Of a stretch of 61,556 nucleotides of DNA, positions 21,308 through 40,043 are shown in pieces. The stretch comes from a virus, in the IMG/VR virus record IMGVR_UViG_3300030012_003022, positions 1-61,556 of that record. One strand, 5' to 3'. Below the pieces are notes generated by a model that made no database searches, was not told the origin of the DNA, and saw only the letters and a list, made by a program, of their open reading frames with translations. Numbering within the stretch: position 1 is the first letter of the stretch; the number at the start of each line of letters is the position of its first letter. The translations under genes and the position numbers were made by a program.

Positions 21308-21324
21308 GTATATACCTCATGTTG

Positions 21325-21341
21325 TGAAGACCTTATGAACC
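21325..21341 (-). promoter_or_regulatory. promoter of the PAC2-like/helicase unit
   Basis: Minus strand GGTTCATAAGGTCTTCA, sharing the 12-mer ATAAGGTCTTCA with the promoter at 9362-9379. The CATAAGG core lies about 27 nt before the ATG at 21307; an AGG 8 nt upstream of that ATG could also act as ribosome binding site. Confidence 0.5.
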
Positions 21342-22355: not shown

Positions 22356-22491
22356 TACTCCCACCGCCTATGTTTGCGTTTTTAATAAGCCTCTCAAGCA
22401 GGAAGTCAGCCGTTGGGTCATGTCCTGCGATTCTTAGCAATTGTATAGCGTCAAGTGCTACATTCAATACTTCTTCGTATTGAGGATTCAT
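22342..22491 (-). CDS. 49-residue helical protein
   Basis: Frame MNPQYEEVLNVALDAIQLLRIAG...FLLERLIKNANIGGGSNATV, one amphipathic helical hairpin. ATG overlaps the upstream stop (ATGA) and the frame ends inside the next gene, the same coupling as its neighbours. Function unknown. Confidence 0.5.
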   Translation of the reverse strand: MNPQYEEVLNVALDAIQLLRIAGHDPTADFLLERLIKNANIGGGSNATV

Positions 22492-22826
22492 TCAATCATC
22501 TCCTTCCATGTTTCCGGTAAGCCTAATCCTTGTTCAAGTGCTTTCATTATTTCAACATGGTCGTTGCCATATCTAATCATTTCATCTAATGTTGAAAGAA
22601 CATCAAGTTGCTTCTTGTTCTCTTCACGCAATCGCTTGCCTTCTTCATCACATAATTTGATAGTCCATTCACGATTACCTATTATTTCACGCAATCGTTT
22701 GACTTCTTCAATCAAAGGAAACATTCTTGCTAATAGCGTATGCTCGTTTTCTTTATCGCCATAAAAGGCGTTAAACTCCAATTCTAATTCTTCTATGTCT
22801 ATCATCCAATTCCACTCCGGTTTCAT
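22488..22826 (-). CDS. coiled-coil protein
   Basis: 112 residues, almost all helical with heptads (LIEEVKRLREIIGNREWTIKLCDEEGKRLREENKKQLDVL). Overlaps both neighbours by 4 nt. Function unknown. Confidence 0.55.
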   Translation of the reverse strand: MKPEWNWMIDIEELELEFNAFYGDKENEHTLLARMFPLIEEVKRLREIIGNREWTIKLCDEEGKRLREENKKQLDVLSTLDEMIRYGNDHVEIMKALEQGLGLPETWKEMIE

Positions 22827-23035
22827 TCTTCCTCATCTCCTCCTTTCATAGGTCTGTGCCACTCCTGTAATCCATCATGTAGATACTCTAACAAATACAA
22901 ATCGCAACCATCAAAGTTAAGCCTACGGGCATATCTACCATCGGGTAGCAAGACAGTCTTCGACTCCTTGACTGCATACCACACACCATCCGGTGCAAGC
23001 ATTGTGTCTATGACGGGTATGTTGTATATGCTCAT
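22823..23035 (-). CDS. small beta-rich protein
   Basis: 70 residues: MLAPDGVWYAVKESKTVLLPDGRYARRLNFDGCDLYLLEYLHDGLQEWHRP then an acidic tail. Looks like a single small beta domain. No family recognised; in the overlapping chain. Confidence 0.5.
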   Translation of the reverse strand: MSIYNIPVIDTMLAPDGVWYAVKESKTVLLPDGRYARRLNFDGCDLYLLEYLHDGLQEWHRPMKGGDEEE

Positions 23036-23286
23036 GCTATTGCCTCCACTTGACTTATCAAATCCTTCAAAGTGTCTTCAAGAACACCTTGCACAGTCTC
23101 CGCATTGTCCTTTACTTCCTGTATTTGCGTTTCAACATTGAAGTCTAAATTGATAGCGCACAAGTCGTCTAATGCACTATTGATTTCATCAATCGCATTT
23201 AGGGCATCATCACATGCACTCATCAATTCATCAAGTGCTATCGCCTTGTCTTTCAATTCCTCGCAAAGTCCGTCTATATCTGTCAC
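23032..23286 (-). CDS. small acidic helical protein, GTG start
   Basis: 84 residues if begun at the GTG (VTDIDGLCEELKDKA) that follows GGGGGTGA-GTAAT; longer starts overlap the upstream gene. Contains a repeated helix pattern (LDELMSACDDALNAIDEINSALDDLCAINLD), a coiled coil. Function unknown. Confidence 0.5.
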   Translation of the reverse strand: MTDIDGLCEELKDKAIALDELMSACDDALNAIDEINSALDDLCAINLDFNVETQIQEVKDNAETVQGVLEDTLKDLISQVEAIA

Positions 23287-23287
23287 A

Positions 23288-23770
23288 TTACTCACCCCCA
23301 TAGCCATACATAGGTGTATCATCCTGTTTATGACCTGTCATTAGGTATGATGCTTCCTGTATGGTGTATCGCCTCTCACCCTTCATAGGCTCGTCAGTTT
23401 CCGCATAGTGTATGATAGCATTACCCACAAGTGGCATAATGTTCTCCAAGTGTAAGTCTACGAAAGACTTATTGTATTTTGCGAGAGTTGCTAAATGATT
23501 TGGTTCAAGACCAATTAGCAATCCTTCTTCATTAACAACGATGTCAAGGACATCTTGTTTCATTACTCGTAGGTATCTTAGATTATCTCCCATCTTCCTC
23601 GCCCTCTTTGTTGATTTTTTACAATTCACAAAGAAGTTAGACTTCTTTTCAGCGTGTGTATATTCTATGAGACCACCTACGAACTCTTGCATTTCTGCAA
23701 GAGTAGGTTCTTCATCCACTATCTTTTCTATTTCTCCACCTGTTCTTAAGAACAACCATTTTTCTTTCAT
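23288..23770 (-). CDS. DUF3846-like protein
   Basis: 160 residues. The pattern LAEMQEFVGGLIEYTHA, then VLDIVVNEEGLLIGLEPNHLATLAKYN and LVGNAIIHY is that of the DUF3846 family common in phages and plasmids (core NEEGLL-GL-N--A). The family has no established function. An insert of about 25 basic residues (NCKKSTKRARKMGD) separates the first two blocks. Confidence 0.65.
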   Translation of the reverse strand: MKEKWLFLRTGGEIEKIVDEEPTLAEMQEFVGGLIEYTHAEKKSNFFVNCKKSTKRARKMGDNLRYLRVMKQDVLDIVVNEEGLLIGLEPNHLATLAKYNKSFVDLHLENIMPLVGNAIIHYAETDEPMKGERRYTIQEASYLMTGHKQDDTPMYGYGGE

Positions 23771-23976
23771 CTTTTCACCTTCCTATTTTTTATCTCCAAT
23801 TTACTAAGGAGTATTCCCATGTTATCTTCTATCTCACGGATAGCGGGTTCTACGACCACCTTCCACGCATTTACCTTCTCGATACCATGCTCGGTATCTA
23901 TGTATGCGATTTCTTCAATGAGTTGCGTAGCAATCTCAAGAGCCTTTATCGTCTTGCCGTATCTGTATTTCCTCAT
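23767..23976 (-). CDS. small helical protein
   Basis: 69 residues from MRKYRYGKTIKALEIATQLIEEIAY, with GGAGTGA 5 nt before the ATG. Helical with basic ends. No family recognised. Confidence 0.5.
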   Translation of the reverse strand: MRKYRYGKTIKALEIATQLIEEIAYIDTEHGIEKVNAWKVVVEPAIREIEDNMGILLSKLEIKNRKVKR

Positions 23977-23981
23977 GTATA

Positions 23982-24650
23982 TCACTCCCAATACTCGTCT
24001 CCGTATGGGTCGTCGTCATAGTCGTCAATATCCTTCTTAGGATATTCAAGACCCATTTCCTGTTGTTTCTTTGCGATTCTATCTTCAACCTCTCCTAATG
24101 TGCATGTCTCATCAAACATACCATGTGTAGCATCTCCGGCTCGCCATTGAATACTCTCGTAGTAATTCACCAATGTAGGGTGTGCATCTGCCGCTAAAGC
24201 AATCGCACCTTCACTCTTTACGAAGTAATCCGGTGCAAGAGCCTCGCAAGTATCTGCAATTGTCTTTATCAAATGCGCTTCCCTTCGGAACTTTCTTTCT
24301 TCTTGCGTTTCTGTGATTATATTAAAATCAGCCGTCAGCGTGACTCCGTCTGCTTGTAAATTAGGTTCGCTTAACACTATGCGACTAATCAAAAGACTCT
24401 CCATGCTATGCACTACTTCCTGTGCATCTATGTTCTCTTGTGCAAGAATAGCCCTTGCTTGCTTGTTCAGCCTATGCAGTTCTCTTGCGCTTCTGTCTGT
24501 GATGTGGTTGAATACACTAACACCATTCTCGTCAAGGAATCCCTTATCTGTTTGCATAACACACGCCTGTTCGACCACAACCGTATGATAAAACATATAC
24601 GCCTCATCCTTATCCTTTACATTCACTTCTCCTTCTTTCCAATTGCTCAT
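23982..24650 (-). CDS. unknown acidic protein
   Basis: 222 residues, helical, with a very acidic tail (DIDDYDDDPYGDEYWE) of the kind that binds basic partners or DNA-binding surfaces. No family recognised. First gene after a promoter of the recurring bipartite type. Confidence 0.55.
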   Translation of the reverse strand: MSNWKEGEVNVKDKDEAYMFYHTVVVEQACVMQTDKGFLDENGVSVFNHITDRSARELHRLNKQARAILAQENIDAQEVVHSMESLLISRIVLSEPNLQADGVTLTADFNIITETQEERKFRREAHLIKTIADTCEALAPDYFVKSEGAIALAADAHPTLVNYYESIQWRAGDATHGMFDETCTLGEVEDRIAKKQQEMGLEYPKKDIDDYDDDPYGDEYWE

Positions 24651-24674
24651 TCATATCACTCCTGTTTTTCATCC

Positions 24675-24696
24675 TTAATACGGGTCTCCCCTATTT
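24675..24696 (-). promoter_or_regulatory. bipartite promoter, copy 1
   Basis: Minus strand AAATA, 7 nt, ACCCGTATTAA; the TATTAA part ends 24 nt before the ATG at 24650. It aligns without gaps with the elements at 25718-25739, 27796-27817 and 28915-28936. Confidence 0.55.
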
Positions 24697-25267
24697 ATTT
24701 GTTTCCCTCACTATAAGCACCATTTTTGAGACGCTCAATCGCAGTATCATAATCCTTTTGCTTTATCACGCCCATATCCAAAAACTCTTTCAAGGTCTCG
24801 TCAATTTCAACAGTCCATCTAAAGCGAGAACGCAAACGATGGACTAAGAAACTAAAGTCCTCATACATCTTCTGTGTATGCTCATCCCATCCATTCACTT
24901 CTTGCATGTGTTCCCGAACCTGTTTGGCCGCACCTACCTTGAGACTGCGACCCAAATGTTTGACACAATGGCAGTAAGGACATAGTGCCTGTATGCCTTT
25001 CAATGTCTGTATATGTCTTATGTCGTCATAAGACCAAACCTCATGTGCTTCAACGGCATGTTTGCGATTTTGCGAAAATCCGTCTTGTCCACAAATCTCA
25101 CATTTATGTCCTGCTTGCTCATAACACCATTTGCGTAAGCGATTCCATCCCGAAGGCGGGAGAAGGCTACGCAAGTTTGCACCCCATGTTCCGGTAGGAA
25201 CTAACTCGGTTGAGAGTATGGGGAAGCGTATCTTGCCGTCTTTGTCCTCAAAGACTTTCAAGCACAT
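24695..25267 (-). CDS. HNH endonuclease
   Basis: 190 residues from MCLKVFEDKDGKIRFP; a TTG two codons later has a better-placed GGTGA. The HNH domain is plain: HKCEICGQDG, AVEAHEVWSYDD, LKGIQALCPYCHCVKHLG, with two CxxC pairs holding zinc and the catalytic histidine in EAHE. The C-terminal helices have basic faces. Could be a homing endonuclease or a packaging-linked nuclease; it is far from the terminase, so the first is more likely. Confidence 0.8.
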   Translation of the reverse strand: MCLKVFEDKDGKIRFPILSTELVPTGTWGANLRSLLPPSGWNRLRKWCYEQAGHKCEICGQDGFSQNRKHAVEAHEVWSYDDIRHIQTLKGIQALCPYCHCVKHLGRSLKVGAAKQVREHMQEVNGWDEHTQKMYEDFSFLVHRLRSRFRWTVEIDETLKEFLDMGVIKQKDYDTAIERLKNGAYSEGNK

Positions 25268-25700
25268 CACCCATAGCCTTCGCAACCTTGTCTTTGATGT
25301 CTTCAAAGGAGACATCAACAAGTTCTGTTTCTGTGTTGTTTGATGATTTAGGAATGAAAGTATTTCCGTCAATGAATTTAGGACTCTCAATCTTTGTTCG
25401 TATCTTTGGTCTTGCGAAGTTAGATGTCATTCTAACTTTTCTTACGGCCATGACTACGGGAGTAGCACACGCACTACATACATAACCTACATCTCCCCTG
25501 CTCATTCTTCTACCACAAGTAGGACATTCTCCTTCTTTTATGCTACCATCTAACCTCACATGGTAGTCCAAATGACTACCATTTGGGTGTTTGCACCTAA
25601 CTACAAAGTTAGGTGCATTAGGCACACATTGTATTAGCAATTGCTCATAGTCCTGCGGCACTTCATTCATCTGTTTCAATTCTCGTCGGTTCTCGTTCAT
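25248..25700 (-). CDS. zinc-ribbon protein
   Basis: 150 residues from the ATG preceded by GAGGTATGTAT. Middle: ECPTCGRRMSRGDVGYVCSACATP, a zinc ribbon; C-terminal half is polar and low-complexity. Its coding sequence carries two perfect hairpins at 25560-25617. Follows a bipartite promoter. Confidence 0.6.
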   Translation of the reverse strand: MNENRRELKQMNEVPQDYEQLLIQCVPNAPNFVVRCKHPNGSHLDYHVRLDGSIKEGECPTCGRRMSRGDVGYVCSACATPVVMAVRKVRMTSNFARPKIRTKIESPKFIDGNTFIPKSSNNTETELVDVSFEDIKDKVAKAMGDVLESL

Positions 25701-25717
25701 ATACATACCTCGTTTAT

Positions 25718-25739
25718 TTAATAGGGGCTTCTCATATTT
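25718..25739 (-). promoter_or_regulatory. bipartite promoter, copy 2
   Basis: Minus strand AAATA, 7 nt, GCCCCTATTAA, ending 17 nt before the ATG at 25700. See copy 1. Confidence 0.55.
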
Positions 25740-25932
25740 AACTCAATGGGTTGTCATGCCCTCCTTGCGCCCATTGTAGTGCTTTTATCACGCCTCTCAA
25801 GGCGTTGTAATTCCTTACGCATTCTGCTCTCTCGCTTCTTGTGTTTGCATTACGCATGGCTTCATACCACTTCTCACGCAGTATAATAGCCTCTTGTTTC
25901 ATCTCCTCTAATTGTTCCCATGTCCTAATCAT
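25738..25932 (-). CDS. small helical protein
   Basis: 64 residues from MIRTWEQLEEMKQEAIILREKWYEAM, a helical hairpin; GGTGG lies 5 nt upstream, at the end of the previous gene. No family recognised. Confidence 0.5.
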   Translation of the reverse strand: MIRTWEQLEEMKQEAIILREKWYEAMRNANTRSERAECVRNYNALRGVIKALQWAQGGHDNPLS

Positions 25933-26432
25933 TATTTCCACCACCAATTAGGGGCTTGTCTCCCCTTTTGCCACTTTGCGAATCTTGCTTTCTCATGTAG
26001 GTAATAGTTTCTGTATGCCATGACTGCGTCACCTTCGACCTTGTATTCGTCGGGCATACATTGAGCGAACTCGGTCAATTCCCCTTCGGGAATCATGTTC
26101 ATCATGTGGAACATCTGTTCGATACCATCAACGCAGTAATGCGATTTTCCAAATCTTCTTTCGTATTCTTCGCAAAGCATGGCTGCATGGAACGCAGCCC
26201 AAATGAAATTCTCTCTCGTATCACCTACCCAACGGGTAGCGGGGTGAAAATGATAACCACCTTTTAGGGGCGTGTTTGACTTTGTCAAAGGCATCTGCTC
26301 ATCTGTTGCGCCATGTCTGCGTAGTGCTGAACCCATTTGTTGATATAATTCGCATACCATTTTAGGCACATGCTTATCACAATACATCTTTGCGGCCTCC
26401 GTAGGGGATTTGTCAAGGACAAATATATTCAT
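25932..26432 (-). CDS. conserved phage protein of the CDKHVxKM type
   Basis: 166 residues. Opens MNIFVLDKSPTEAAKMYCDKHVPKM and includes HPATRWVGDTRENFIWAAFHAAMLCEEYERRFGK and MPDEYK...YRNYYLHEKARFAKW, a pattern I recognise from hypothetical proteins in many marine phages. The conserved cysteine, histidines and arginines suggest an enzyme, but no activity is established that I know of. Confidence 0.65.
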   Translation of the reverse strand: MNIFVLDKSPTEAAKMYCDKHVPKMVCELYQQMGSALRRHGATDEQMPLTKSNTPLKGGYHFHPATRWVGDTRENFIWAAFHAAMLCEEYERRFGKSHYCVDGIEQMFHMMNMIPEGELTEFAQCMPDEYKVEGDAVMAYRNYYLHEKARFAKWQKGRQAPNWWWK

Positions 26433-26606
26433 TCAATCACCCCTCCTTTCTTCGGGTGTCAAAAAGAAATTAGCATATTCGGGGTAGTCTCTTAGTATGG
26501 CTACTACTTTACTGTGCCAAGCATCACGCCAAGCACCATTGTTCCCACTATGTATGAGCGTGAAATACGCTCGTATAATAGTATCAAACTCGTCTTTTGT
26601 TATCAC
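26433..26606 (-). CDS. 57-residue protein, GTG start
   Basis: Frame VITKDEFDTIIRAYFTLIHSGNNGAWRDAWHSKV...FFLTPEERRGD. The GTG overlaps the upstream stop (GTGA) and the TGA lies immediately before the next ATG, so it completes an unbroken chain. Helical; unknown function. Confidence 0.55.
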   Translation of the reverse strand: MITKDEFDTIIRAYFTLIHSGNNGAWRDAWHSKVVAILRDYPEYANFFLTPEERRGD

Positions 26607-26884
26607 TCTTCTTCACCTTCCCAATTGTCAGTTATCTTTGCGAACTGTTCCATAAATTCTTTATGGGAATGTAATTCTCTTAGTTCGCATAAGACTATGG
26701 AAGTTATACTTCTCAATACGCCTACCTTGTATGGATGGCCGTCGAAATCTTCGATTACATCACCTGCCTCTAAGGTATCGCATATCTCGCTTAGTATTTG
26801 TTCATACAAATCGTCGGCTTTTCTTTTCGCTCTTGCGTCTCTAACTTCTTTCATCAATTTTTTTGCTATTCCTTCTTCTTTCAT
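26603..26884 (-). CDS. small protein with basic helix
   Basis: 93 residues; basic N-terminal helix (KKLMKEVRDARAKRKADDLYEQ) then a small beta region GDVIEDFDGHPYKVGVLRSI and acidic tail. No family recognised. Confidence 0.5.
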   Translation of the reverse strand: MKEEGIAKKLMKEVRDARAKRKADDLYEQILSEICDTLEAGDVIEDFDGHPYKVGVLRSITSIVLCELRELHSHKEFMEQFAKITDNWEGEEE

Positions 26885-27078
26885 GCTCTCGCCTCCATCA
26901 TTTTCTTTATCCTGTATGCAATCACTAATTCATTACATGAATCGCAAACTCTACCAGCAACCAAAGGTTGTCCGTTGTGTCCACTATCCCAATACATGAC
27001 GCGCTCACCCTCAAGGTTGGTCATGTATTTTTTCTCAATTTTGCCAAAGCATAAATCGCATATTTTTTCTTCGCTCAC
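26881..27078 (-). CDS. zinc-ribbon protein
   Basis: 65 residues: CDLCFGKIEKKYM ... GRVCDSCNELVI, two CxxC pairs bracketing a beta hairpin, a typical treble-clef/zinc-ribbon layout. Overlaps both neighbours by 4 nt. Confidence 0.65.
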   Translation of the reverse strand: MSEEKICDLCFGKIEKKYMTNLEGERVMYWDSGHNGQPLVAGRVCDSCNELVIAYRIKKMMEARA

Positions 27079-27293
27079 TCTTCCTCATCTCCAAATAATT
27101 CTTCGTTGCCGTAGCCGTTCTCATAGTCTTCTCGCAAGGCACTTTCATAATCAGCCATGCCTACATTGTAGGCTATCGGGTCTATCGTCTGTAATGCGAC
27201 TGACGGCAAGTAGGTATAACCTGCAATCTTCACCATCGGGTAGCATTCGTCTAACATCTCATCATACATTTCTTTCAGCAATTCTTCATTCAT
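27075..27293 (-). CDS. small acidic protein
   Basis: 72 residues, MNEELLKEMYDEMLDECYPMVKIAGYTYLPS...YGNEELFGDEEE. Net negative, in the overlapping chain. No family recognised. Confidence 0.5.
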   Translation of the reverse strand: MNEELLKEMYDEMLDECYPMVKIAGYTYLPSVALQTIDPIAYNVGMADYESALREDYENGYGNEELFGDEEE

Positions 27294-27772
27294 TCTATCA
27301 CTTCTCCTAAAGCATCTCGCAACAGTTCCTTGACCTGTGCCGTAGTCATAGGCTTGCCTGTGCTACGCTCATTCCATGACCTTGTCATGGGTTTGCTATC
27401 GGTGTAGCCTTTGGCTACGGTTCTGTTGCGAGAATATTTTGCACCATGCCATGTGGCCGTAGTGTTGAGAACTTTGTTCCCTACGGGGCTTCGGTGTCTT
27501 TTTGCTTTGTAAGCATTCTGCTTACGAAGATACTCTTGATGCTTTGCATCATCATAATATGGAATACCTGTAATCACTTGTGATTCGGGGTAGTCTTCAA
27601 GGTCTGTAATACGCATAGCGCAAACCATCTTCAAGTCGTGGTCTTTGTAAAAGACTACATGCCTATACCCTTGACCGTTAGAATTGACACGCCACAAAAT
27701 AGGGTGTCCGTTCTCACATCTAAAAATTTCAGCGTTCTTCAATTGTCCGTCTTCATCATATCCTGCCATCAT
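27290..27772 (-). CDS. unknown protein with basic middle
   Basis: 160 residues. Beta-rich N-terminal third (IFRCENGHPILWRVNSNGQGYRHVVFYKDHDLKMV), then a basic, poorly ordered middle (NAYKAKRHRSPVGNKVLN...YSRNRTVAKGYTDSK). The coding sequence holds perfect hairpins at 27374-27390 and 27404-27418. First gene after a bipartite promoter. Confidence 0.5.
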   Translation of the reverse strand: MMAGYDEDGQLKNAEIFRCENGHPILWRVNSNGQGYRHVVFYKDHDLKMVCAMRITDLEDYPESQVITGIPYYDDAKHQEYLRKQNAYKAKRHRSPVGNKVLNTTATWHGAKYSRNRTVAKGYTDSKPMTRSWNERSTGKPMTTAQVKELLRDALGEVIE

Positions 27773-27795
27773 TCATCACCTGCATATATTACAAA

Positions 27796-27817
27796 TAAAT
27801 AGGGGGTTTTGGTATTT
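27796..27817 (-). promoter_or_regulatory. bipartite promoter, copy 3
   Basis: Minus strand AAATA, 7 nt, CCCCCTATTTA, ending 23 nt before the ATG at 27772. Confidence 0.55.
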
Positions 27818-27823
27818 AACATT

Positions 27824-28054
27824 TTACTCCGACCTCCTGTCGCATACACATTCGCTACGCCACTCGCCACACCCATTACATAGGCGAGCCTTTGCATATC
27901 CAAGTGCCGCCTGTATCTTTGAGCGTATTGCACCCTCAAGATTGTCGCTTTTTGGTAGGCAGTCTAAAGCAAGCCTCAAGTATTTGCGAATATAATAACC
28001 TCCGGTAGGAGGTTGATTTTGGTTGATTACATCAGCCGTAAATGCGTTGCTCAA
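27824..28054 (-). CDS. zinc-knuckle protein, TTG start
   Basis: 76 residues; TTG with GGAGG 7 nt upstream, overlapping the upstream stop. C-terminus CNGCGEWRSECVC, four cysteines in 13 residues. The middle is helical. Function unknown. Confidence 0.6.
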   Translation of the reverse strand: MSNAFTADVINQNQPPTGGYYIRKYLRLALDCLPKSDNLEGAIRSKIQAALGYAKARLCNGCGEWRSECVCDRRSE

Positions 28055-28326
28055 CAGACCGCCTCCTCTAAAGTCATTATCGCATTTTCAAGGCAAGTAT
28101 GCGCCTCATCTGCTTCTGTGTATGCTTGCTCAAGTGCTTCAACCGCTTCCGCAAGTGCTTCTCCAATGGGAGAAGCCTCAAGACCATTATCGCAAATGTT
28201 CTCATACTTTATCTGTTCTTCGGTTTCTCTTTCCTCAAGGAAAGCCCTAATGTCTTCAACCTGCGAGAGTATCTCTTGCAGTTCGCCTATTCTTTGCTCT
28301 ATCATTTTTCTGTCCTTTGCGTTCAC
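28051..28326 (-). CDS. coiled-coil protein
   Basis: 91 residues, GTG start overlapping the upstream stop. Long acidic helices (IEQRIGELQEILSQVEDIRAFLEERETEEQ and EALAEAVEALEQAYTEADEAHTCLENAIMTLEE). No family recognised. Confidence 0.5.
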   Translation of the reverse strand: MNAKDRKMIEQRIGELQEILSQVEDIRAFLEERETEEQIKYENICDNGLEASPIGEALAEAVEALEQAYTEADEAHTCLENAIMTLEEAVC

Positions 28327-28406
28327 TCTTCTTCACCTGCCTCATCCTTATCCGCTACGGGCAAACCTAATACACGGAAAATGTCCTTGAAAATTGGGTG
28401 GGTCAT
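28323..28406 (-). CDS. 27-residue protein in the overlapping chain
   Basis: MTHPIFKDIFRVLGLPVADKDEAGEEE. AAGGAGG lies 7 nt before the ATG, which overlaps the upstream stop by 4 nt; its own stop overlaps the next GTG by 2 nt. The strong ribosome binding site and exact stop-start overlaps on both sides support translation. Confidence 0.45.
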   Translation of the reverse strand: MTHPIFKDIFRVLGLPVADKDEAGEEE

Positions 28407-28627
28407 TGACCTCCCTCCTTTGCGAACTCTTCGATAAAGTCTTTGACTTTACCAATATCTACTGTGCCTTCGCCCCATTGGTAATTACATGCTTTTGCTA
28501 TATGCAAAAGTATGTCCGTGTCATACTCGCATGACACGGCATCAATGAAGCAACTTGTCAGTCCTCCATCTTGCGCGCAACCATATCCAATCATGTGCAA
28601 CATAATTTCAAATTTCTCATCATTCAT
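28403..28627 (-). CDS. small unknown protein
   Basis: 74 residues, MNDEKFEIMLHMIGYGCAQDGGLTSCFIDAVSCEYDTD..., helical with three cysteines. Directly abuts the DUF2958-like gene. No family recognised. Confidence 0.5.
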   Translation of the reverse strand: MNDEKFEIMLHMIGYGCAQDGGLTSCFIDAVSCEYDTDILLHIAKACNYQWGEGTVDIGKVKDFIEEFAKEGGQ

Positions 28628-28888
28628 TCAATAATCCCTCCTTCCGGAGTAAGGCAAATCGCAATCCTTAATCTCCCATACCATAGGTATGCTATCCAAT
28701 TCGGCTACGCTGAAATAACCCCATTCGGGGTATGTGCCTTGCACATACCCGAAGCATGTTCCATCGTCGTGTATCTCCGTTGCGAACCAATACCAACCGG
28801 ACATGGATTCCCAACCCTTCAAAACTTTGTTTTCATCTCCGTATGCTCGGAGGTATAATTCACCATTTTTCGTTATCAATTCAGTCAT
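28628..28888 (-). CDS. DUF2958-like protein
   Basis: 86 residues. GWYWFATEIHDDGTCFGYVQGTYPEWGYFSVAELDSI matches the DUF2958 core (WYatE...fGyV-G-E-GYFsl-EL). The family is common on plasmids and phages without a known function. The sequence carries a 10-bp perfect hairpin at 28728-28750. Confidence 0.65.
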   Translation of the reverse strand: MTELITKNGELYLRAYGDENKVLKGWESMSGWYWFATEIHDDGTCFGYVQGTYPEWGYFSVAELDSIPMVWEIKDCDLPYSGRRDY

Positions 28889-28914
28889 TCTTCATCGTCT
28901 CCTGTTTCTCGGCC

Positions 28915-28936
28915 TTTATAGGGGTTCTTCATATTT
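28915..28936 (-). promoter_or_regulatory. bipartite promoter, copy 4
   Basis: Minus strand AAATA, 7 nt, ACCCCTATAAA, ending 26 nt before the ATG at 28888. It overlaps the 3' end of the upstream gene. Confidence 0.55.
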
Positions 28937-29092
28937 AAAAGGAACTGTCGAGCAATAATCACGCTCATAAATTTTAAGAGCATCTTTCACGCTAATAAAA
29001 TGCGAGTTCTTCGCGTGTGTAAATACGCGCCACCTGCTCGGAGGCACACCTAATGCGAGTGCGCTCATGTGTATATAGCCTTCTTGCGTCAT
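28916..29092 (-). CDS. small unknown protein
   Basis: 58 residues from MTQEGYIHMSALALGVPPSRWRVFTHAKNSHFISVKDALKIYERDY. The first part has a short HTH-like turn. GGTGA precedes the ATG closely. No family recognised. Confidence 0.45.
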   Translation of the reverse strand: MTQEGYIHMSALALGVPPSRWRVFTHAKNSHFISVKDALKIYERDYCSTVPFKYEEPL

Positions 29093-29094
29093 GT

Positions 29095-29553
29095 TCACCA
29101 CTCCTCCGGCATAGGTTCACCTGCACACCTTATTACGCCTTCATCAAATTCCCAAGAACCCTCATCCGTTCTCATACCAATTCTTTGAATTGCACCCCAT
29201 TTTTTTCTATCTACTGTATTAGGTTCTGTGAACCTAATACCTGTCATTTCTGTTAGAACAGAAATCGCAAAGACTAAATCTTTAGGACATAGCCCTGCTA
29301 TGTAGTTCATACCTTCGGGAGTTAGGACATCATAATAATGCACAAACAATAAATCGCACATAGTTTCCTCGATGATTTGTTCTCCTACGGAGACTCCGGT
29401 ATGCTTCGATTCATCTCCGGCCATGAGTCTTATGAAAGACTCAAAATTTTCGTGGTCTTCGACATGGTTTAACAGTCTCTTGCCTGTGTTTGTAAAACAA
29501 ACTCTTGCTAAGAGCCACGCTTGCCTAAAGGTATCATCATGCCAAATACTCAT
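29095..29553 (-). CDS. unknown helical protein
   Basis: 152 residues from the ATG overlapping the upstream stop. Mostly helical with tryptophans (FRQAWLLARVCF, DRKKWGAIQRI, EGSWEFDEG). No family recognised. Confidence 0.5.
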   Translation of the reverse strand: MSIWHDDTFRQAWLLARVCFTNTGKRLLNHVEDHENFESFIRLMAGDESKHTGVSVGEQIIEETMCDLLFVHYYDVLTPEGMNYIAGLCPKDLVFAISVLTEMTGIRFTEPNTVDRKKWGAIQRIGMRTDEGSWEFDEGVIRCAGEPMPEEW

Positions 29554-29780
29554 CAAGCCCACTCCCCTGCATCTAACGCCATGTGTCCTGCTGATTCATC
29601 AAGCAAGCAAGCCATCTGTTTTACCTTGAAACCTTCAAAGAAGTTTTCAAATTGATTTACGATGTGCATCGCAAATTCTTCCATCTCCTCCTTAGGAGGA
29701 GTCGGAAGCACAATCAAATGTGTCTCCTCCTCGCCTGTCTGTTCGTTTATCATGCCTACATTCCATACTTTCATGTTCAT
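29553..29780 (-). CDS. small unknown protein
   Basis: 75 residues, MNMKVWNVGMINEQTGEEETHLIVLPTPPKEEMEEFAMHIVNQFENFF..., an alpha/beta mini-domain. Followed at once by the next gene's start. The region before its ATG contains a hairpin, TTCAAATA-TTC-TATTTGAA, at 29804-29822. Confidence 0.5.
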   Translation of the reverse strand: MNMKVWNVGMINEQTGEEETHLIVLPTPPKEEMEEFAMHIVNQFENFFEGFKVKQMACLLDESAGHMALDAGEWA

Positions 29781-29822
29781 ACTTTATCACTCCTTTTGCT
29801 TTTTCAAATATTCTATTTGAAC

Positions 29823-30770: not shown

Positions 30771-30812
30771 TCACCACCTTTGCGAATTTTTGATAATCTC
30801 CTACGGAGGTTA

Positions 30813-32294
30813 TCAAGCCGCCCCTCCGTTTCCTGTTGCATCTTCGATGAAAGACTTGTCGTAGCCTATGGCTCGGAGGTCTTTCTCATTCCAATCTGCT
30901 AAAGCAGTAGTTCTCCAACGGTTGCCATTCCAACCCAATACATGCTTTTGCTTGTAGGCAGTTTGCATGTGGCGAGGACTGATAATCCTACGGATTCCTG
31001 CTGAATCGGCTTTGCTTCGCACTTCATGGAAGAAATTGACGATTTCATCGTCTTGGATAAGTTCTCGCTCAAAGGCTCGGTCATAGCCCCAATGGATAAC
31101 GCCTCCTGCAAAGCGATTCAAAGTGGATATATCAAGTGTTTCATTGGCTATATAGCCACTTCGACCACTACCCTGTCCAAGAGTATTTCCGGTTGCGAGA
31201 ATCCATAAATCGTCGGAACGACGGACAACTTTTCCATCGGGCATTCTCCAAGTATCTCCGGCTAAAGCCGCATTTGCCGCTATTGCAGTTCCACCTACAA
31301 GGCATGGGAACTCGTCAAAGACGAGGACTCCACCATCTCGATAGACTTTGACTATGTCACTCATTCGGTGAACCTCGACTTCGCCACCATCCTTCGGATT
31401 GATTTGAGGAATCATTCCACCGACTATGTCGGAAGGCATCATTTCATTGTGACATGATAGGATAACGAAGTTATCGTCAAGGGTCAAATTCTTGTTTGCG
31501 AATCCGCCATTTTCCTTCGGAAGATGGAGTAGGGTCTCAAATATTTGCTTTGCAGCAAATGTTTTACCGCTTCCTGCCGCACCACATGAGTAAGCATTGG
31601 CTCGGATTTTTGCTAAATCCAAAGCATGCTCAAAGCATGGATGAGTCAAACCAACCTCAAGGTCTCTTGAGTCCTTGCCAAGTGGCTTAACGACCAAAGG
31701 TCGAGGTAAAGACATAGCCGCTAATTGCGAAGCAATTTCGGATTGAACATGGTTTGAGACCATCCCGATAAGGGATGGGGCAACTAATCCTGCAAGCACA
31801 TCTCCGGCTTCTCCGGAAGCCGCAGTAGGTATTGAAACCTTTACAGGTTTTAGGGGGTTCTCCTTGAATAAGGAGTCAAGGTCGTCTTTGTTCTCCTTCG
31901 GAGGAGTCTTAGACTCCTTTGGAGGAGTCTTAGGCTTAGGGTTATCCCAACCTCCATCTTTGATGGAGTGAACATAATCTCGGTCTTCATCAGCGAAGTA
32001 AGCATCTTTGAATGCTTTCATGCTTGAGCCATTGTGAATTATTGCATAAGCAATATTTTGGCCGGACATTTTGTGGTCTTCGGGAAGTAGATGTTTATCA
32101 ACATCTATGCAGGAAGTATGAATCCAAGATTTTTTGCGACTTTCAGTCGGTAGATTGACACATACTACCGCATGTTTAGGGGCTTTGCCCCTTATTTTTG
32201 TTCCACAAACTTTACAGTTTGCATCAAAATTTGCGTTCTTCGTTTTTAGGCCGACTGCTCTTAGCAGTTTGTTTGTTTCATTTTGCTTGCTCAT
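30813..32294 (-). CDS. MoxR/CobS-like AAA+ ATPase with N-terminal zinc finger
   Basis: 493 residues from MSKQNETNKLL, with GGAG 9 nt upstream. Residues 25-65 hold CKVCGTKIRGKAPKHAVVC...WIHTSC, a PARP/treble-clef-like C2HC finger. A proline/lysine linker (KPKTPPKESKTPPKENK) leads to the AAA+ core: Walker A SCGAAGSGKTFAAK, Walker B GGVLVFDEFPC, sensor 1 WILATGNTLGQG, and TLNRFAGG, in the pattern of CobS/MoxR ATPases. It probably remodels a nucleic acid or protein complex with the downstream gene. The linker coding region is itself a run of near-palindromes. Confidence 0.75.
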   Translation of the reverse strand: MSKQNETNKLLRAVGLKTKNANFDANCKVCGTKIRGKAPKHAVVCVNLPTESRKKSWIHTSCIDVDKHLLPEDHKMSGQNIAYAIIHNGSSMKAFKDAYFADEDRDYVHSIKDGGWDNPKPKTPPKESKTPPKENKDDLDSLFKENPLKPVKVSIPTAASGEAGDVLAGLVAPSLIGMVSNHVQSEIASQLAAMSLPRPLVVKPLGKDSRDLEVGLTHPCFEHALDLAKIRANAYSCGAAGSGKTFAAKQIFETLLHLPKENGGFANKNLTLDDNFVILSCHNEMMPSDIVGGMIPQINPKDGGEVEVHRMSDIVKVYRDGGVLVFDEFPCLVGGTAIAANAALAGDTWRMPDGKVVRRSDDLWILATGNTLGQGSGRSGYIANETLDISTLNRFAGGVIHWGYDRAFERELIQDDEIVNFFHEVRSKADSAGIRRIISPRHMQTAYKQKHVLGWNGNRWRTTALADWNEKDLRAIGYDKSFIEDATGNGGAA

Positions 32295-32298
32295 ATTT

Positions 32299-32625
32299 TC
32301 ACACTCCATTTATTGCTCGGATTTGACCCTCCGAGAGGGTTTCACTATTAAAAGATTTTGAAATTGCTTTGGCAATATCTCCGGAAAATTTGCTACCGAA
32401 GGTCTCAAAGCGAACTAATGCCGATTCAACACAATCGTGCATGTATAAAGCATCAAACAAGGACTCTTGTTTGTCTTCGTCTTCAATTACATCATCTATG
32501 ATTTTGCCAACGGCAACCTCGACGATTTGTTTGTTCAATCCTAATGAGGCGAGTATGTGTGTTGCCTCATCAATTAGGTCGTTAAACCCTTTATTCTTAA
32601 TATCCTTCTCAATATTAGTTATCAT
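32299..32625 (-). CDS. small helical protein
   Basis: 108 residues from MITNIEKDIKNKGFNDLIDEATHILASLGL. The frame stays open upstream to 33294, but there it translates repeat-rich DNA into low-complexity sequence, so I start at 32625. The start lies in an imperfect palindrome (TATCACACC/GGTGATGATA), a possible operator. First gene of the MoxR unit; function unknown. Confidence 0.55.
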   Translation of the reverse strand: MITNIEKDIKNKGFNDLIDEATHILASLGLNKQIVEVAVGKIIDDVIEDEDKQESLFDALYMHDCVESALVRFETFGSKFSGDIAKAISKSFNSETLSEGQIRAINGV

Positions 32626-33129
32626 CACCCTAAGGTGTGATAACAATATAGAAGGATATAGAATAGGGTCTATATCCCTAAAGGGATATACCGGACTGCG
32701 ATTCTCAAATAAAGTATGTTGATACTTTATTTTAGAATCCGTATGTATGCACATACAGGGAAATTCAGTCTGCATTTTCATACTCCGTAGGAGTATGGTT
32801 TTTAGGAACTTTAATATACACCTTCCTTTAAAAGGAAGCAGCGCGTAGCATGTGCCTATGTGCGAGTCTATCGTTTTCAAAACAAGAGATATATCAAAAT
32901 ATTCTATTTTGTATCTCTCTTGCGAATCGAGGTTCGGTGGTATGACTTTACCGTTTGCGATTTTGTCGGCTTGATAGGGTATCGAGAACGGCAGGAAACA
33001 CCGCTTTACTTTTTGCACCACTTCAATTTTAGTCTTCCCTAAACTTCCGTAGGAAGTCAAGTATGCCTCCGCATGTGCTTGGGTATGTGCGAGGGCATCT
33101 AAATTCTCAAGGAGAATTGACCCATTTTT

Positions 33130-33156
33130 AGAATAAGAATTATGGAATCTTATTCT
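33130..33156. repeat. hairpin R1
   Basis: AGAATAAGA and TCTTATTCT arms around the 9-nt loop ATTATGGAA. Preceded at 33102-33118 by a hairpin with arms AATTCTC/GAGAATT and followed by an alternating purine-pyrimidine tract. Confidence 0.75.
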
Positions 33157-33483
33157 TAAAATCACATGAGGCACAGATACCCGCACATGCAGGTAGGCGA
33201 GCGAGCAGGTATGCGAGCGTAGGTGCGTATGCAAGCGCGAGGGCGAGGGCATAGGCAAGCCCACTTGAGCAAGGGTCTGTTTGTGTCTGTTCATCTAAAG
33301 TTTGGAAATCTTTTTTTTCCGAAAATTTTCGGTTTCATCAAGAAAACTTTAGGATTTTAGAGAAATCTAAGTAAATTAGATTTATCAAAAATTAGAAAGT
33401 TCAAGGTGAGCAGGTATGCGAGCCTACACCTACACAGGTGCGTAAGCAGGTCTTAATTCTCGGAGAGAATTTCGCAAATCTAA

Positions 33484-33510
33484 TGAATAAGAATTACAGA
33501 ATCTTATTCA
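33484..33510. repeat. hairpin R2
   Basis: TGAATAAGA and TCTTATTCA arms around ATTACAGAA, 354 bp after R1. Also preceded (33455-33471) by AATTCTC/GAGAATT around GGA and followed by an alternating tract, so the composite unit repeats. Confidence 0.75.
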
Positions 33511-33760
33511 TAGATTCACACATGCACATAGGCATGCGCGAGGGCGCATGCACATACATGCTCGCAAGCATACATGCACACCCGCGAGGGTGTGCATACC
33601 TACACACATACCCACACCTACCCCCCCGTATGCGCTCACCTACACCCCTGCGCGAGCATGTGCAAGCACATGCGAGAGTGTGCGAGCAAGCGCACACATG
33701 CGTTTTTTAGCGATTTTTCTAAAGAAAAATAGCAAAAAAACTTAGGAAAATTTCCCCCTT

Positions 33761-33797
33761 TTTTAGAAAGAGGAATTGAGGAATCCTCTTTCTAAAA
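33761..33797. repeat. hairpin R3
   Basis: 14-bp arms TTTTAGAAAGAGGA and TCCTCTTTCTAAAA around ATTGAGGAA. Preceded by an ATTTTTC/GAAAAAT hairpin near 33713-33730 and followed by an alternating tract. Confidence 0.75.
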
Positions 33798-33872
33798 CTT
33801 CGCGTAGGTGTGCATGCACACGCATACGCACATACGCGAGTGTGCGTAGAGGCACACACGCAAGCGTAATTT

Positions 33873-33900
33873 AGAATATAGATTCAGTAATCTATATTCT
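33873..33900. repeat. hairpin R4 (inverted relative to R1-R3)
   Basis: 12-bp arms AGAATATAGATT and AATCTATATTCT around CAGT. Read on the minus strand the inner part is TTACTGAA, close to the ATTNNNGAA loops of R1-R3. Marks the right end of the array. Confidence 0.7.
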
Positions 33901-33927
33901 TAAATTTGTTTTTTTTAAAATAAAAAA

Positions 33928-33959
33928 AAGCCCGTAAGCCTAAATTGGCCTACGGGCTT
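33928..33959 (-). terminator. hairpin terminator for the 507-residue gene
   Basis: AAGCCCGTA and TACGGGCTT form a 9-bp stem, with GCC/GGC inside after one mismatch. On the minus strand the stem is followed by eight T, an intrinsic-terminator layout, 76 nt after the stop at 34036. Confidence 0.65.
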
Positions 33960-34035
33960 AATTTATTCCGGATTTAAACTTCGTTTATTTTGATAATACC
34001 TCCATAATTTGTTGATTCAAAACTTCGTTTTGGGT

Positions 34036-35559
34036 TCAGTAATTACCGTTCCAGCAGTCATTCGCACAAGAATTGAAAATTCTTTTGTAATGTTTTAGAA
34101 TCTTTTTCGGCACTTTTGCTTTCGTAGAAAGCAATTCAAGGGAAAGATAGTCATAAAAAGCGACCCAACCTCTCAAAGACTTCGTCTTAATTCCTTCATC
34201 ACAATGATATTCAAAGTTCTCTACTAAACAGTAGAGTTCGGAAAGGCTCATTTTTGAGACCATGTCTCTAAAAATTTGATAGATTTCTTGGCCGAATTTA
34301 TCTTCCATATATGGAAGATTACAGTCTCTTGCTAACTGATTGACTCCGTCAAAATAGTAGCAATTTAATGTAGTTGTTCCTTGAACAAACTCCTCATTGT
34401 CTTTGTAATTCTCAAGGAGAATTTCACCAATTTTTCGGTCTAATTCCGTAGGAAGTCCTTTTACAAATTCAATTGCTTCGCAAATCTTCAATTGTCCTTC
34501 TTCATCTTTACGATGAATGAAGGCTCTTGGAAATGTTTTTTCCCCTTTAGGGAAACCCGAAGGATATTGTCTTAGACAATGGGCTGAATATCCGGCTTTC
34601 ATTCCTTGAATGAAGAAGTCAAATCTATCAAGAATTTTAAATTCTTGAAGCCACTCCTCTAAATCTTCAACTATTACTTTGTAATACTTCATCGGCATTT
34701 CCCAATTATAGACAACTCGGTTGAAAACCGAAACGACATAATCAATGACATCGTCAATTTCCGAATCTACGATTCGGCTGAACTCCACTTCTTGAAATGC
34801 TTTCAAGAATGGAGAAGTCCATTCCTTTCGTTCTTCGTCAGTCAATAAGTCGTAAAGACTTATTGGATTAGCAGTTACAACTGCTTTGTTTGCGATTTCT
34901 TGCTGAATTTTCAATTCAGTTTGAAGGTCTTGACCTTCCATGAAATACTCAAAAATGCTGACATGGTCAGCATCGTCAAATTGGTTCTCTATTTGCCAAA
35001 TTTCCAAAGGAATCTCATCAATAGCAAAAATTTTCCTAAAAGCCCTTTTAAGGGCTGATTCGGTCTGTTCTTCAAGCCATATATGGCTTGATTTGAAGAC
35101 CTTGTAGTTAGGAATAATCAATTCATTGATTATTTCATCTTTTGTCAAGGACAAAAGACGGCTAACTTCATTGACATAGTCAATGGCTTGGCAGTTTAGG
35201 TCGTTAATATCTGTTGATATTAAATCAATAATTTCATTATTGGTGTAATCGTCAATCAAATCTTCTACGAAGATGCAAAGGTCTCGGCCTCCGTCGGTCT
35301 CTTCAAGACCGAGAACGGCAAAAAATCTACCAAAATTCAGCGCAGTTTTACTGTTTTTTAGAATTTGGGAGACCATCTTTTCTCCGACATGGTCGGTGAA
35401 GTAGTCCAAAGCCCAATTTGCAGTTTCAACAATTGGTTGTTGAAAATTCAAAGGAAAGGCAATCTTGATTGCCTCTTTCGGAGACAAGTCTCCGGTTTCA
35501 GTTTCAGCCCAACTCAAAGAGTCGGTGGTCGGTTCTTTCTTTTGATTAGGTTTTATCAT
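34036..35559 (-). CDS. unknown 507-residue protein between the two structured non-coding blocks
   Basis: Long acidic, mostly helical protein starting MIKPNQKKEPTTDSLSWAETETGDLSPKEAIKIAF. I recognise no catalytic motif. The gene is flanked on both sides by hairpin-rich DNA, the place where initiator or partition proteins usually lie, but that is inference. The coding sequence itself is full of perfect hairpins (for example 35113-35134, 35139-35157, 35169-35185, and the 16-base palindrome at 35074-35089), about one every few tens of bases, without breaking the frame. Confidence 0.7.
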   Translation of the reverse strand: MIKPNQKKEPTTDSLSWAETETGDLSPKEAIKIAFPLNFQQPIVETANWALDYFTDHVGEKMVSQILKNSKTALNFGRFFAVLGLEETDGGRDLCIFVEDLIDDYTNNEIIDLISTDINDLNCQAIDYVNEVSRLLSLTKDEIINELIIPNYKVFKSSHIWLEEQTESALKRAFRKIFAIDEIPLEIWQIENQFDDADHVSIFEYFMEGQDLQTELKIQQEIANKAVVTANPISLYDLLTDEERKEWTSPFLKAFQEVEFSRIVDSEIDDVIDYVVSVFNRVVYNWEMPMKYYKVIVEDLEEWLQEFKILDRFDFFIQGMKAGYSAHCLRQYPSGFPKGEKTFPRAFIHRKDEEGQLKICEAIEFVKGLPTELDRKIGEILLENYKDNEEFVQGTTTLNCYYFDGVNQLARDCNLPYMEDKFGQEIYQIFRDMVSKMSLSELYCLVENFEYHCDEGIKTKSLRGWVAFYDYLSLELLSTKAKVPKKILKHYKRIFNSCANDCWNGNY

Positions 35560-36279
35560 TAGTTTATACCCCCTTCATCATAGATGAGGGGGTTAAACAA
35601 TGTAAAACCAATCAAGAAATATCCCCCTAAAGGGGGATAGCCTTTGCGAATTATGATAATCAATATCTGTATATTGATTATCTTAATTTAGAAATAATTT
35701 TTGGATTTGGAAAACCGATAGACTCGCGAGGGTATGCGTGGACTCCTTTTAAAGGAGTTAAGTTATAGAGTTTTGCGATTTTTTACTCTCTCTAAAGAGA
35801 GAGTAATTTCTTGGGGAAAGCCGACCTCTCGCGCGCGAGATGTTTGATTTTGCCTTTTCAAAATATAGGATATTAGTTCTTCAACAATATCCTATATTTA
35901 ATGGAGAAGTTTTCGCCATTTTTGTAATTCTGTGGAATTACAAGATTAAAATTCAAGTCTTATATTGTAGAATAGTCTTTTCGGATTAACGAGTTAATCC
36001 GTTTTCAGTATTAAGGTCAATAAGGCTTGGTAGATATTTGAATGCTTTTTTTGGTCTAAAGACCAACCACCACATTCAAAAAAACACCAAAAATTTCTTA
36101 GAAAAAGTTGCCCTTTATTTGGACACCGGAAATCCTCTTTAGAGGATTTCCGAAAAGAAATAAAAAAAGGGGCGGAGTTCGATGAACTCCGCCCCAATTT
36201 CCAAATTTTCAGTTTTGCGATATCTTTTTTCAATCCTCCATATTTTCATTCATTCTTCGGCTTGCTGAAACTGTCTTGA
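35560..36279. repeat. second non-coding hairpin-rich block
   Basis: No credible gene. Perfect hairpins include 12-bp arms GATAATCAATAT/ATATTGATTATC near 35658-35685, TTACTCTCTC/GAGAGAGTAA around TAAA near 35784-35810, AATATAGGATATT/AATATCCTATATT near 35865-35901, TTGTAATTC/GAATTACAA near 35923-35944, CGGATTAA/TTAATCCG near 35982-36001, and CGGAAATCCTC/GAGGATTTCCG at 36127-36152. Loops are short (2-4 nt) in most. A frame at 35994-36233 translates these repeats and is rejected. Confidence 0.65.
36169..36195 (-). terminator. strong GC hairpin terminator
   Basis: 12-bp perfect stem GGGGCGGAGTTC/GAACTCCGCCCC with a 3-nt loop; on the minus strand it is followed by seven T. It lies 85 nt after the stop of the small zinc protein gene. 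Confidence 0.7.
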
Positions 36280-36444
36280 TTATTCGTTGATATAACCCTG
36301 ATTTTTAGCACAATTCAAACAAAGGATGTTCAAACTTCCATCATCAGCCATTGAAAGCAAAACACCATAGTTTGAACATGGTCTTTTGGTTTCAATCATT
36401 ACATTACAGTTCCATTCATTACATTTAGTTAGGTTATTTCTCAT
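36280..36444 (-). CDS. 54-residue cysteine-rich protein
   Basis: MRNNLTKCNEWNCNVMIETKRPCSNYG ... ILCLNCAKNQGYINE, with five cysteines including a final CLNC, a probable zinc-binding fold. GGGAG precedes the ATG by 4-5 nt. Isolated between the terminase terminator and a strong hairpin terminator. Confidence 0.6.
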   Translation of the reverse strand: MRNNLTKCNEWNCNVMIETKRPCSNYGVLLSMADDGSLNILCLNCAKNQGYINE

Positions 36445-36604
36445 ATTACTCCCTGTTAGTCCGGTAAAAATCGGTAGTTATTAGTTGTTTGGTGGGATTG
36501 CCCCACCATAAAAACAATACAAAAACGATTGACTGAAAGCCTAAAATGGTTAATTTAGGGCAACCTAAAAATTTTAGTTCGGATTCAAAAAATTGCCAAA
36601 AATC

Positions 36605-36629
36605 CGACTACTAACGGAGTTAGTAGTCG
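36605..36629 (-). terminator. hairpin terminator of the terminase unit
   Basis: 11-bp perfect arms CGACTACTAAC/GTTAGTAGTCG around a 3-nt loop, followed on the minus strand by GATTTTTGG, 43 nt after the terminase stop. Confidence 0.6.
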
Positions 36630-36671
36630 CCAAGCACCTCAAAAAAATTTTTGAAAAATTTTTGAAAAATT

Positions 36672-38192
36672 TTAGAAAAAAGTCCTATACTTTCCACTTC
36701 TTCTTGCATTCCCTCGATTTCTTGCGAATTTGTTGTTGCGATTTGTTGGTTTGCCCCAATTTGACATATTTACTGTCGAAGATGCTACGGGTAATGGACT
36801 GTTCTGTGCAGTCTTGTATTGGTCTATGGCGTGTGCAAGTGCCATTACGGTGTCATTGTGCTTACCTTTGTCCACTATTACGCCACTTTTCCAAGTATGC
36901 GATTCTAACTCTTGTAGTAGTATATTCATTAGTTTTCGGGTCTCATCGTTGCCGTATGGGATGATTATTTTGCCCTGCTCAAACCATGAACGGAGTCTTG
37001 TCAATAGACCCTGCTTAAGAGTTCTGTTTGAGACCTTTGACATATTGACATCTAAACTGATTCCCCTTTGATTTATGATTGCTCTATACAGATGTTGAAA
37101 ACCTGCACTCTCAAAAGCAAACTTAGGTCTCTCGTAAGCCTTGTCATACTCTTGTATTACATCAACCTGTTTATCGGGAGGGAAGTCGTTGCGCCTCCAT
37201 AAGTTTGCGATATGCACATTTCCGTCTTCATCCTTTCGCAAGACACACATAACAGAAAAATCTTGTCCGATACCATGTGAAGGGTCAAAGCCTATGACAT
37301 AGTCGCCATCGTATATCTTATGTGTCTGTAATGTGGAAGACATATCTAAGTTCTTACGAGTAATTATCTGTGGGAATACTGCCGAATCATCATCAACGAC
37401 TTTACATAGATACTCTTGAGCAAATGCTAAATCACCTATTGCTTCTTTTTGTTCAAGTAAAAAGTCAAGAGGTCTTTCGCTTTCCCATAGACAGATAGGT
37501 TTTATCTCTTCGGGATTAAGTCGCCACTCATCATAATTAATTATTGCACCTTTACGCCATGATTCCCAAGCATTATTATCTAACATCTCGGTATGATACA
37601 AGTCATTCATTGACATAGGAGTTCCTACACAGTAAATCGAAGTTCCGGGCGATAACATAGGAGTAAGTTTCTTTCTAAACCATTGTTGATACATCTCATA
37701 GGACATATCATTTTGGTCGTCAAGTATATCATCAAGTGCTATTGCTGCGGGGTGTTCACCACGAATACCCGAACCAACCGATGTTGCCTTAATCCATGAA
37801 CCATTTGTTAGACGAAGTTCAAATCTATTACCCTTTTTATCATCAATCAATCTGCTAAGTTCGGGATGCCTCTTCATGTCTTGTCGTATTTCATCAAGAC
37901 GATTCATAGCCAAATCTTTGTTAGCAGAAAAAAGCCATATTGTAAAGGGTTTATCTCGCCATCTTTCAAATATCAATTGATGTAGTATCTTCACACGAAG
38001 AGTAGTGGATTTACTATGGTCTCTTGGTGCAATAATACATACACGATGAACTTGTTTATCTTGTCTATCACCATAGAGATTTAGCCAATCACCTATATGG
38101 TCGCCCCATTTGTAGCCAAGCCACTCATAGAAGTGTCTAATATCATAACGACTTCTCTCCATGTGGAAAGCAGTCATAATTCTTTGCTTCAT
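36672..38192 (-). CDS. terL: terminase large subunit
   Basis: 506 residues. ATPase: Walker A in CIIAPRDHSKSTTLRV (about residue 53), Walker B AIALDDILDDQND, motif III region IYCVGTPMSMND. Nuclease: VIGFDPSHGIGQDFSVMCVL (RNase H-like first aspartate), with later VDKGKHNDTVMALAHAID supplying the last acid. It packages DNA into the prohead. It is on the leftward strand, opposite to the rest of the head genes, which is unusual. Confidence 0.93.
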   Translation of the reverse strand: MKQRIMTAFHMERSRYDIRHFYEWLGYKWGDHIGDWLNLYGDRQDKQVHRVCIIAPRDHSKSTTLRVKILHQLIFERWRDKPFTIWLFSANKDLAMNRLDEIRQDMKRHPELSRLIDDKKGNRFELRLTNGSWIKATSVGSGIRGEHPAAIALDDILDDQNDMSYEMYQQWFRKKLTPMLSPGTSIYCVGTPMSMNDLYHTEMLDNNAWESWRKGAIINYDEWRLNPEEIKPICLWESERPLDFLLEQKEAIGDLAFAQEYLCKVVDDDSAVFPQIITRKNLDMSSTLQTHKIYDGDYVIGFDPSHGIGQDFSVMCVLRKDEDGNVHIANLWRRNDFPPDKQVDVIQEYDKAYERPKFAFESAGFQHLYRAIINQRGISLDVNMSKVSNRTLKQGLLTRLRSWFEQGKIIIPYGNDETRKLMNILLQELESHTWKSGVIVDKGKHNDTVMALAHAIDQYKTAQNSPLPVASSTVNMSNWGKPTNRNNKFARNRGNARRSGKYRTFF

Positions 38193-39940: not shown

Positions 39941-40043
39941 GTGGTGCATAAACAGTAATAATTATGAGTCATTAATATATGCTTGTGCTTGCAGACCTAA
40001 TACAACCATACATTTAAGAAAGAAAGACTTCCTAACACCCCAC

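Follow-up and report, generated by a model that had tools for sequence, protein, structure and literature searches.

The IMG/VR virus record IMGVR_UViG_3300030012_003022 (61,556 bp), analysed here in its entirety and referred to as the window, carries an early operon saturated with short perfect hairpins. These stems are probably written by a localized mutational process, fold-back template switching, acting in the early operon of one viral clade. Hairpins were defined as perfect stems of at least 6 bp with loops of 2–6 nt and were counted against 100 local dinucleotide shuffles, which keep the local composition, and within genes against synonymous-codon shuffles. Between 22,500 and 36,700 there are 144 perfect stems versus 15.5 ± 3.6 in the dinucleotide shuffles (maximum of 27 in the 100 shuffles), and stems of at least 9 bp number 27 versus 0.19. 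The TerL and late genes (36,700–57,700) hold 23 stems versus 25.1, none of at least 9 bp. The most frequent loop length is 3 nt, followed by 4 and 2 nt. An initial annotation, made from the sequence alone, had described these hairpins, and all eight of its examples are exact. Its expectation of an early arm above the shuffled level and of few hairpins in the portal and late genes agrees with these counts, but the longest perfect stem of the window is 12 bp and not 14 bp. The zone that it delimited does show the strong excess, but does not end at 22,500: a weaker excess (53 versus 18) extends leftward to ~10 kb, within the distal early arm that carries replication genes (3,400–22,500, minus strand).

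The hairpins are found inside genes as well as in spacers, as had also been stated, and the coding excess survives synonymous-codon shuffling. On the minus strand, the 507-aa ORF (an ORFan at 34,036–35,559) has 30 stems versus 5.3 expected, the phrog_249-type AAA ATPase gene (30,813–32,309) 20 versus 2.3 and the DUF7192 gene (29,823–30,770) 10 versus 0.7, with density declining through the small early ORFs (22,500–29,822, same strand). The TerL gene (36,672–38,192, minus strand), which marks the edge of the zone, has 0 versus 1.2, and the portal gene (starting at 39,801, plus strand) 3 versus 1.9. Pooling eight related early regions gave 749 stems versus 175 in synonymous-codon shuffles, and the excess was nearly independent of codon phase (4.5-, 3.6- and 4.7-fold). 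Since it is present in all three phases, the amino acid sequence of the viral proteins itself appears to have been bent by the hairpin process.

A TerL search led to 60 loci, and those with enough sequence were classed as hairpin-rich (H+) or without excess (H-). The loops of the H+ hot regions follow the rules of DNA. In 85% of non-redundant hot hairpins with loops of 2–4 nt, a pyrimidine (C or T) stands immediately 5' of the loop, and closing pairs of the Y-R and R-Y types occur in a ratio of 523:94. That ratio is 177:174 for H- genomes, and 16:11 for the TerL, late and leftmost portions of the window. Enriched loops are T(AA)A, T(TT)A, C(TT)G, C(AA)G and c(TNC)g/c(GNA)g. TTTA loops are also favoured in DNA. 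Triloops of the d(GNA) type closed by C-G are unusually stable (PMC5815330), and a G..A loop with a C-G closing pair enables the promoters of phage N4 to extrude from duplex DNA (PMC4496689). A G-U bias in the mRNA sense was looked for and was absent, as single stem changes gave 131 GT versus 127 AC; one-mismatch stems gave 77 GT versus 118 AC. No Rfam match was obtained. The hairpins are thus a DNA phenomenon. Z-DNA, or alternating purine-pyrimidine sequence, was considered as a common factor and gave no general signal.

Alignment of relatives, as the initial annotation had proposed, showed that stems do change by paired replacements, the arms being kept complementary through multi-base changes that often involve several pairs together. 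For instance, CTATGTGGACATCgaaGATGTCCACATAG is replaced block-wise by CTATACCCCTATCgaaGATAGGGGTATAG between loci that are ~86% identical. In six distinct cases the spacer was inverted exactly between unchanged arms, among them GGATT[CAAC/GTTG]AATCC at 98.6% identity, CCCCT[AA/TT]AGGGG at 99.3% and GTATT[ACTG/CAGT]AATAC; these six are drawn from 15 fully changed loops of 2–4 nt, where ~0.65 would be expected by our own estimate of 1/3 per base. In published work, template switching is recognized by spacer inversion and by homogenization of the arms (PMC8604942; PMC8794818). Paired changes comprise 64 transitions and 54 transversions (3,031 and 3,355 outside hairpins), so that transitions do not predominate as strongly as a G-U route would lead one to expect. 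A cluster of seven bases at position 3,957 of L018 alters both arms of one hairpin relative to L020, in genomes 99.86% identical, and may be either a template switch or a recombination with a relative.

Turnover of coding stems is near-neutral. The window and L016 share only 1 of 69 stems unchanged, yet have equal density. Coding stems are retained above geometry-matched controls, but in most pairs not beyond the survivorship bound. Stem conservation was examined as a proof of selection and rejected, since an apparent 1.5–4-fold lower divergence of stems largely vanishes in coding DNA once classification is symmetric, and is mostly accounted for by survivorship. In addition, the excess of stems with one interior mismatch relative to perfect ones is 0.19–0.46 for lengths of 8–12 bp, slightly below but close to the 0.25–0.50 that would be expected if stems were born perfect and decayed neutrally.

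We base the mutational interpretation on the loop inversions, the block-wise paired changes, the near-neutral coding turnover and this born-perfect ratio. A strand would fold back on itself around a DNA mini-loop of very high stability (c(GNA)g, TTTA/TAAA, C(TT)G or their complements), and a polymerase would then copy one arm from the other arm or from the sister strand before resuming its original template. A single event could thereby yield a perfect stem, later changes would show on both arms, the loop would sometimes be inverted, and stems would afterwards decay through ordinary mutation. Hairpin density would then be a balance of birth and decay. We infer the fold-back and switching step, and the polymerase as its actor; the Family B DNA polymerase (PolB) of the window (6,660–8,900, minus strand) is a suspected, unproven candidate. 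A shortage of single-strand binding protein is known to raise the number of short inverted copies at resected ends (PMC11724301). The initial annotation had preferred template switching to selection; its mutational view is supported, whereas the repair of imperfect palindromes that it had in mind is not shown to be dominant, and whole stems seem to be born perfect.

Concerning position, stem density falls exponentially downstream of the TerL stop, from 22 per kb with a decay length of 6.4 ± 1.0 kb in the window and from 28 per kb with 6.4 ± 1.2 kb in the relative G003. In six genomes the nearest hairpins lie within ~55 bp of the stop, mostly within 40 bp, and the kilobase before that edge contains only a few isolated stems of 6–7 bp. 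Because hairpins begin abruptly at the TerL stop (36,672), the gradient is one-sided. Its fading with distance had been correctly noticed, but it does not run symmetrically around the two non-coding blocks, and its placement around a putative origin was only half right: the edge is sharp, and no origin was identified. A DNA terminus or an early promoter would fit the gradient as well as an origin. The process might be confined by abortive replication near an origin, by a packaging site close to TerL where a DNA end is resected, or by early transcription with supercoil-driven extrusion. TNC loops exceed GNA loops by 66:40 (p = 0.015), which, together with the AC-over-GT mismatches, hints that the plus strand of the window folds more, although non-redundant mismatches number only 21 versus 12 and single stem changes show no skew. 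The plus strand, which this weak loop asymmetry favours, is the one that would stay single-stranded if an end at ~36.6 kb were resected 5'-3'; the asymmetry is no more than a hint of this.

The second non-coding block (33,050–33,900) consists of alternating stretches rich in xCGC/GTGTGC between AT-rich hairpins. Similar low-complexity blocks are found in L023 (1–60 and 2,600–2,680) and L010 (~4,080–4,400); they carry indels between genomes 98.6% identical and are a possible origin element. The AT-rich type GAATAAGnATT....AATnCTTATTC recurs between GC-rich blocks in several genomes (33,132–33,160 and 33,480–33,510 in the window; ~535 in L023). ORFs of this area, such as the N-terminus of 32,299–33,294, may be spurious.

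Nine genomes or contigs are H+ (the window, L007, L009, L010, L045, L063, L065, L069 and L071), all with the same density profile, while L050, L051, L053, L055, L056, L058, L061, L067, L074 and L098, together with the more distant L077–L096, are H-. The trait is present in relatives at ~88–94% identity and in others at 50–60% identity of the AAA gene, and some H- TerLs are nearer to that of the window than some H+ TerLs. Nevertheless, H+ members fall on one side of a branch with SH-aLRT values of 99 for PolB and 98 for the 441-aa core protein, and weakly (80) for TerL, so hairpin saturation is a trait of one viral clade, which is recovered in all three gene trees and strongly in two. The five nearest H- genomes are collinear with H+ ones and, like two more distant relatives, free of the excess; they have the replisome in common with H+ (PolB 59–62%). 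H- genomes have a shorter TerL-AAA interval and no close homologue of the 507-aa ORF or of the N4/N6 DNA methylase (9,383–10,174, minus strand), which all nine H+ members encode and which has a 33% match in one of those five. These differences are correlations with one clade and identify no cause.

Several observations weigh against template switching as the whole account. The mechanism itself gives no explanation for the sharp edge at the TerL stop. Multi-base gains in one arm only, its simplest footprint, are rare among the few cases that could be polarized, with one clear example, and some block replacements alter six adjacent pairs, for which copying one arm would be insufficient without a second source of variation. 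In the pair L013/L023, coding stems are retained somewhat above the survivorship bound. Finally, in the non-coding block that separates the 507-aa ORF from the TerL stop (35,560–36,671, minus strand; hairpins of up to 12 bp), which forms the sharp upstream edge of the zone, L063 and L071 have largely unrelated stems and conserved linkers, with hairpins at offsets 82/84, 133/132, 706/702, 760/755, 838/836, 898/893, 1,001/997, 1,081/1,077 and 1,172/1,168. Such fixed sites may be either a maintained structure or spots at which the process acts repeatedly, and because positions persist while stems change wholesale, a function there is possible.

The same conserved positions, co-varying stems and persistent linkers favour a selected DNA structure, in which the early region would need many hairpins or cruciforms and selection would act on total hairpin content, whether to prime replication, buffer supercoils, shield exposed single strands or serve early transcription. 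Loops that are the best extruders, like the C(GNA)G of N4 promoters, and a density profile kept identical across H+ members are in line with it. We regard this explanation as rather unlikely, given that coding hairpins turn over near-neutrally, that near-perfect stems, which stepwise selection would make, are not over-represented, that loop inversions are a mutational signature and that close collinear relatives manage without hairpins. Selected RNA structure, with hairpins acting in early mRNA or leader RNA (stability, translation or escape from RNA-targeting defence), is improbable: the zone does coincide with the early operon and the covariation of the non-coding block would pass as structured RNA, but the absent G-U bias, which also disfavours the selection for structured mRNA that the initial annotation had offered as its alternative, is joined by little transition bias in paired changes, by the lack of an Rfam match and by loops that obey DNA rules and invert freely. 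An N4-like system, in which a virion RNA polymerase would recognize extruded DNA hairpins as promoters, matches in loop type, C-G closing pair (PMC4496689) and restriction to the early arm; it is very improbable, as there is no common stem or flank sequence, apexes are diverse, hundreds of copies lie within genes with the loop in either orientation, and no RNA polymerase was found among the scanned proteins, including the 2,364-aa late protein of G003. That assembly, whole-genome amplification or low-complexity sequence created the pattern as an artefact can hardly be credited, for although several contigs end in the hairpin zone (L008, for example, 360 bp after TerL), contigs of separate samples, 99% identical, carry the same hairpins, the same profile recurs in many metagenomes, collinear H- relatives are normal and the shuffles keep local composition. 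Dispersed palindromic elements of the RPE, REP or MITE type were also rejected, since copies share no sequence and apexes and stems are diverse within each genome. Metagenome contigs often break inside the zone (the end of L008; starts or ends of G004, G005, G006 and G007), which may therefore be under-represented in assemblies.

As for the remainder of the genome, late genes lie on the plus strand, from portal to tape measure (39,801–57,682, the latter gene starting at 54,206), with hairpins at chance level, and TerL and the early and replication genes lie on the minus strand. The latter include an RFC-like clamp loader (13,813–14,703), an ERCC4-HHH nuclease (3,505–4,278) and a PD-(D/E)XK nuclease (5,388–6,320). 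The 507-aa ORF family (34,036–35,559 and L007, L010, L013, L023, L063 and L065) is a mosaic among relatives, in which blocks such as ADHVSIFEY, FPKGE..FIHR and FDGDA reappear in differing combinations as if modules were shuffled; its predicted structure is a weak all-alpha model (pLDDT 62) for which fold comparison gave no significant match. G003 (L032–L035) is 63,998 bp long with identical ends of 105 bp, and is therefore probably complete. Genomes of the family are ~60–65 kb; a place among Magrovirales or Poseidoniales viruses would call for a genome of 90–110 kb and for recognizable similarity to named members. No close named relative was found in the phage collection, which was not checked for named magroviruses, and neither the portal nor the 441-aa core protein matched named phages. 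A similarity search for the host gave no match in genome contigs; the archaeal-type replisome is no more than a hint that these marine tailed dsDNA viruses infect archaea.

Template switching is a known kind of mutation. Quasipalindrome and short-range template switches of E. coli, yeast and rRNA genes (PMC8604942; PMC8794818; PMC7202029) have in common with our case arm homogenization, multi-base paired changes, spacer inversion and short loops. Known events are rare and scattered: across yeast strains, 10 spacer inversions were counted in coding sequence. In the present viruses, by contrast, there are 20–30 perfect stems per kb, all within a single operon of a single clade, and their density has a sharp edge and a decay length of 6.4 kb. 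Closest among published cases is that of Nematomorpha mitochondria (PMC6649704), where perfect inverted repeats lie in working genes, are gained and lost between species and are suspected to arise by template switching. Repeat length, scale and mismatch statistics all set it apart: those palindromes are long, reaching 284 bp, and imperfect repeats are not in excess among them, while the stems described here are of 6–17 bp with loops mostly of 2–4 nt, imperfect stems stand at about the level of neutral decay, and there is a positional gradient and an on/off difference between close relatives. N4 early promoter hairpins (PMC4496689) likewise have a G.A triloop, closed by C-G, on a short stem and extrude from duplex DNA at physiological supercoiling, and C(GNA)G loops on short stems are enriched here beside other loop types; the N4 hairpins are few, sequence-conserved and bound by the virion RNA polymerase, in contrast to hundreds of sequence-diverse ones in coding DNA. 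Also very short, and primed from a folded 3' end, are the inverted copies that fold-back templating makes at resected DNA breaks, a process limited by RPA (PMC11724301), but these are repair products at single induced yeast breaks, unlike the inherited regional pattern of these viruses.

In the literature searched we found no report of such density, sharp localization or on/off contrast between collinear relatives. Template switching has usually been inferred from rare, scattered events, and the presence of hundreds in one sharply bounded operon, together with a decay length that can be measured and matched relatives free of hairpins, makes what localizes and drives it testable. The case also cautions that strong covariation need not imply selected RNA structure, and it is one of a DNA-level process shaping protein sequence. 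Tentatively, H+ viruses may possess a heritable, region-targeted hairpin-writing activity, in the form of a replication or repair function that was acquired or altered and is absent from their close collinear relatives; it would continually rewrite early genes and serve as a diversity generator through template switching and module shuffling.

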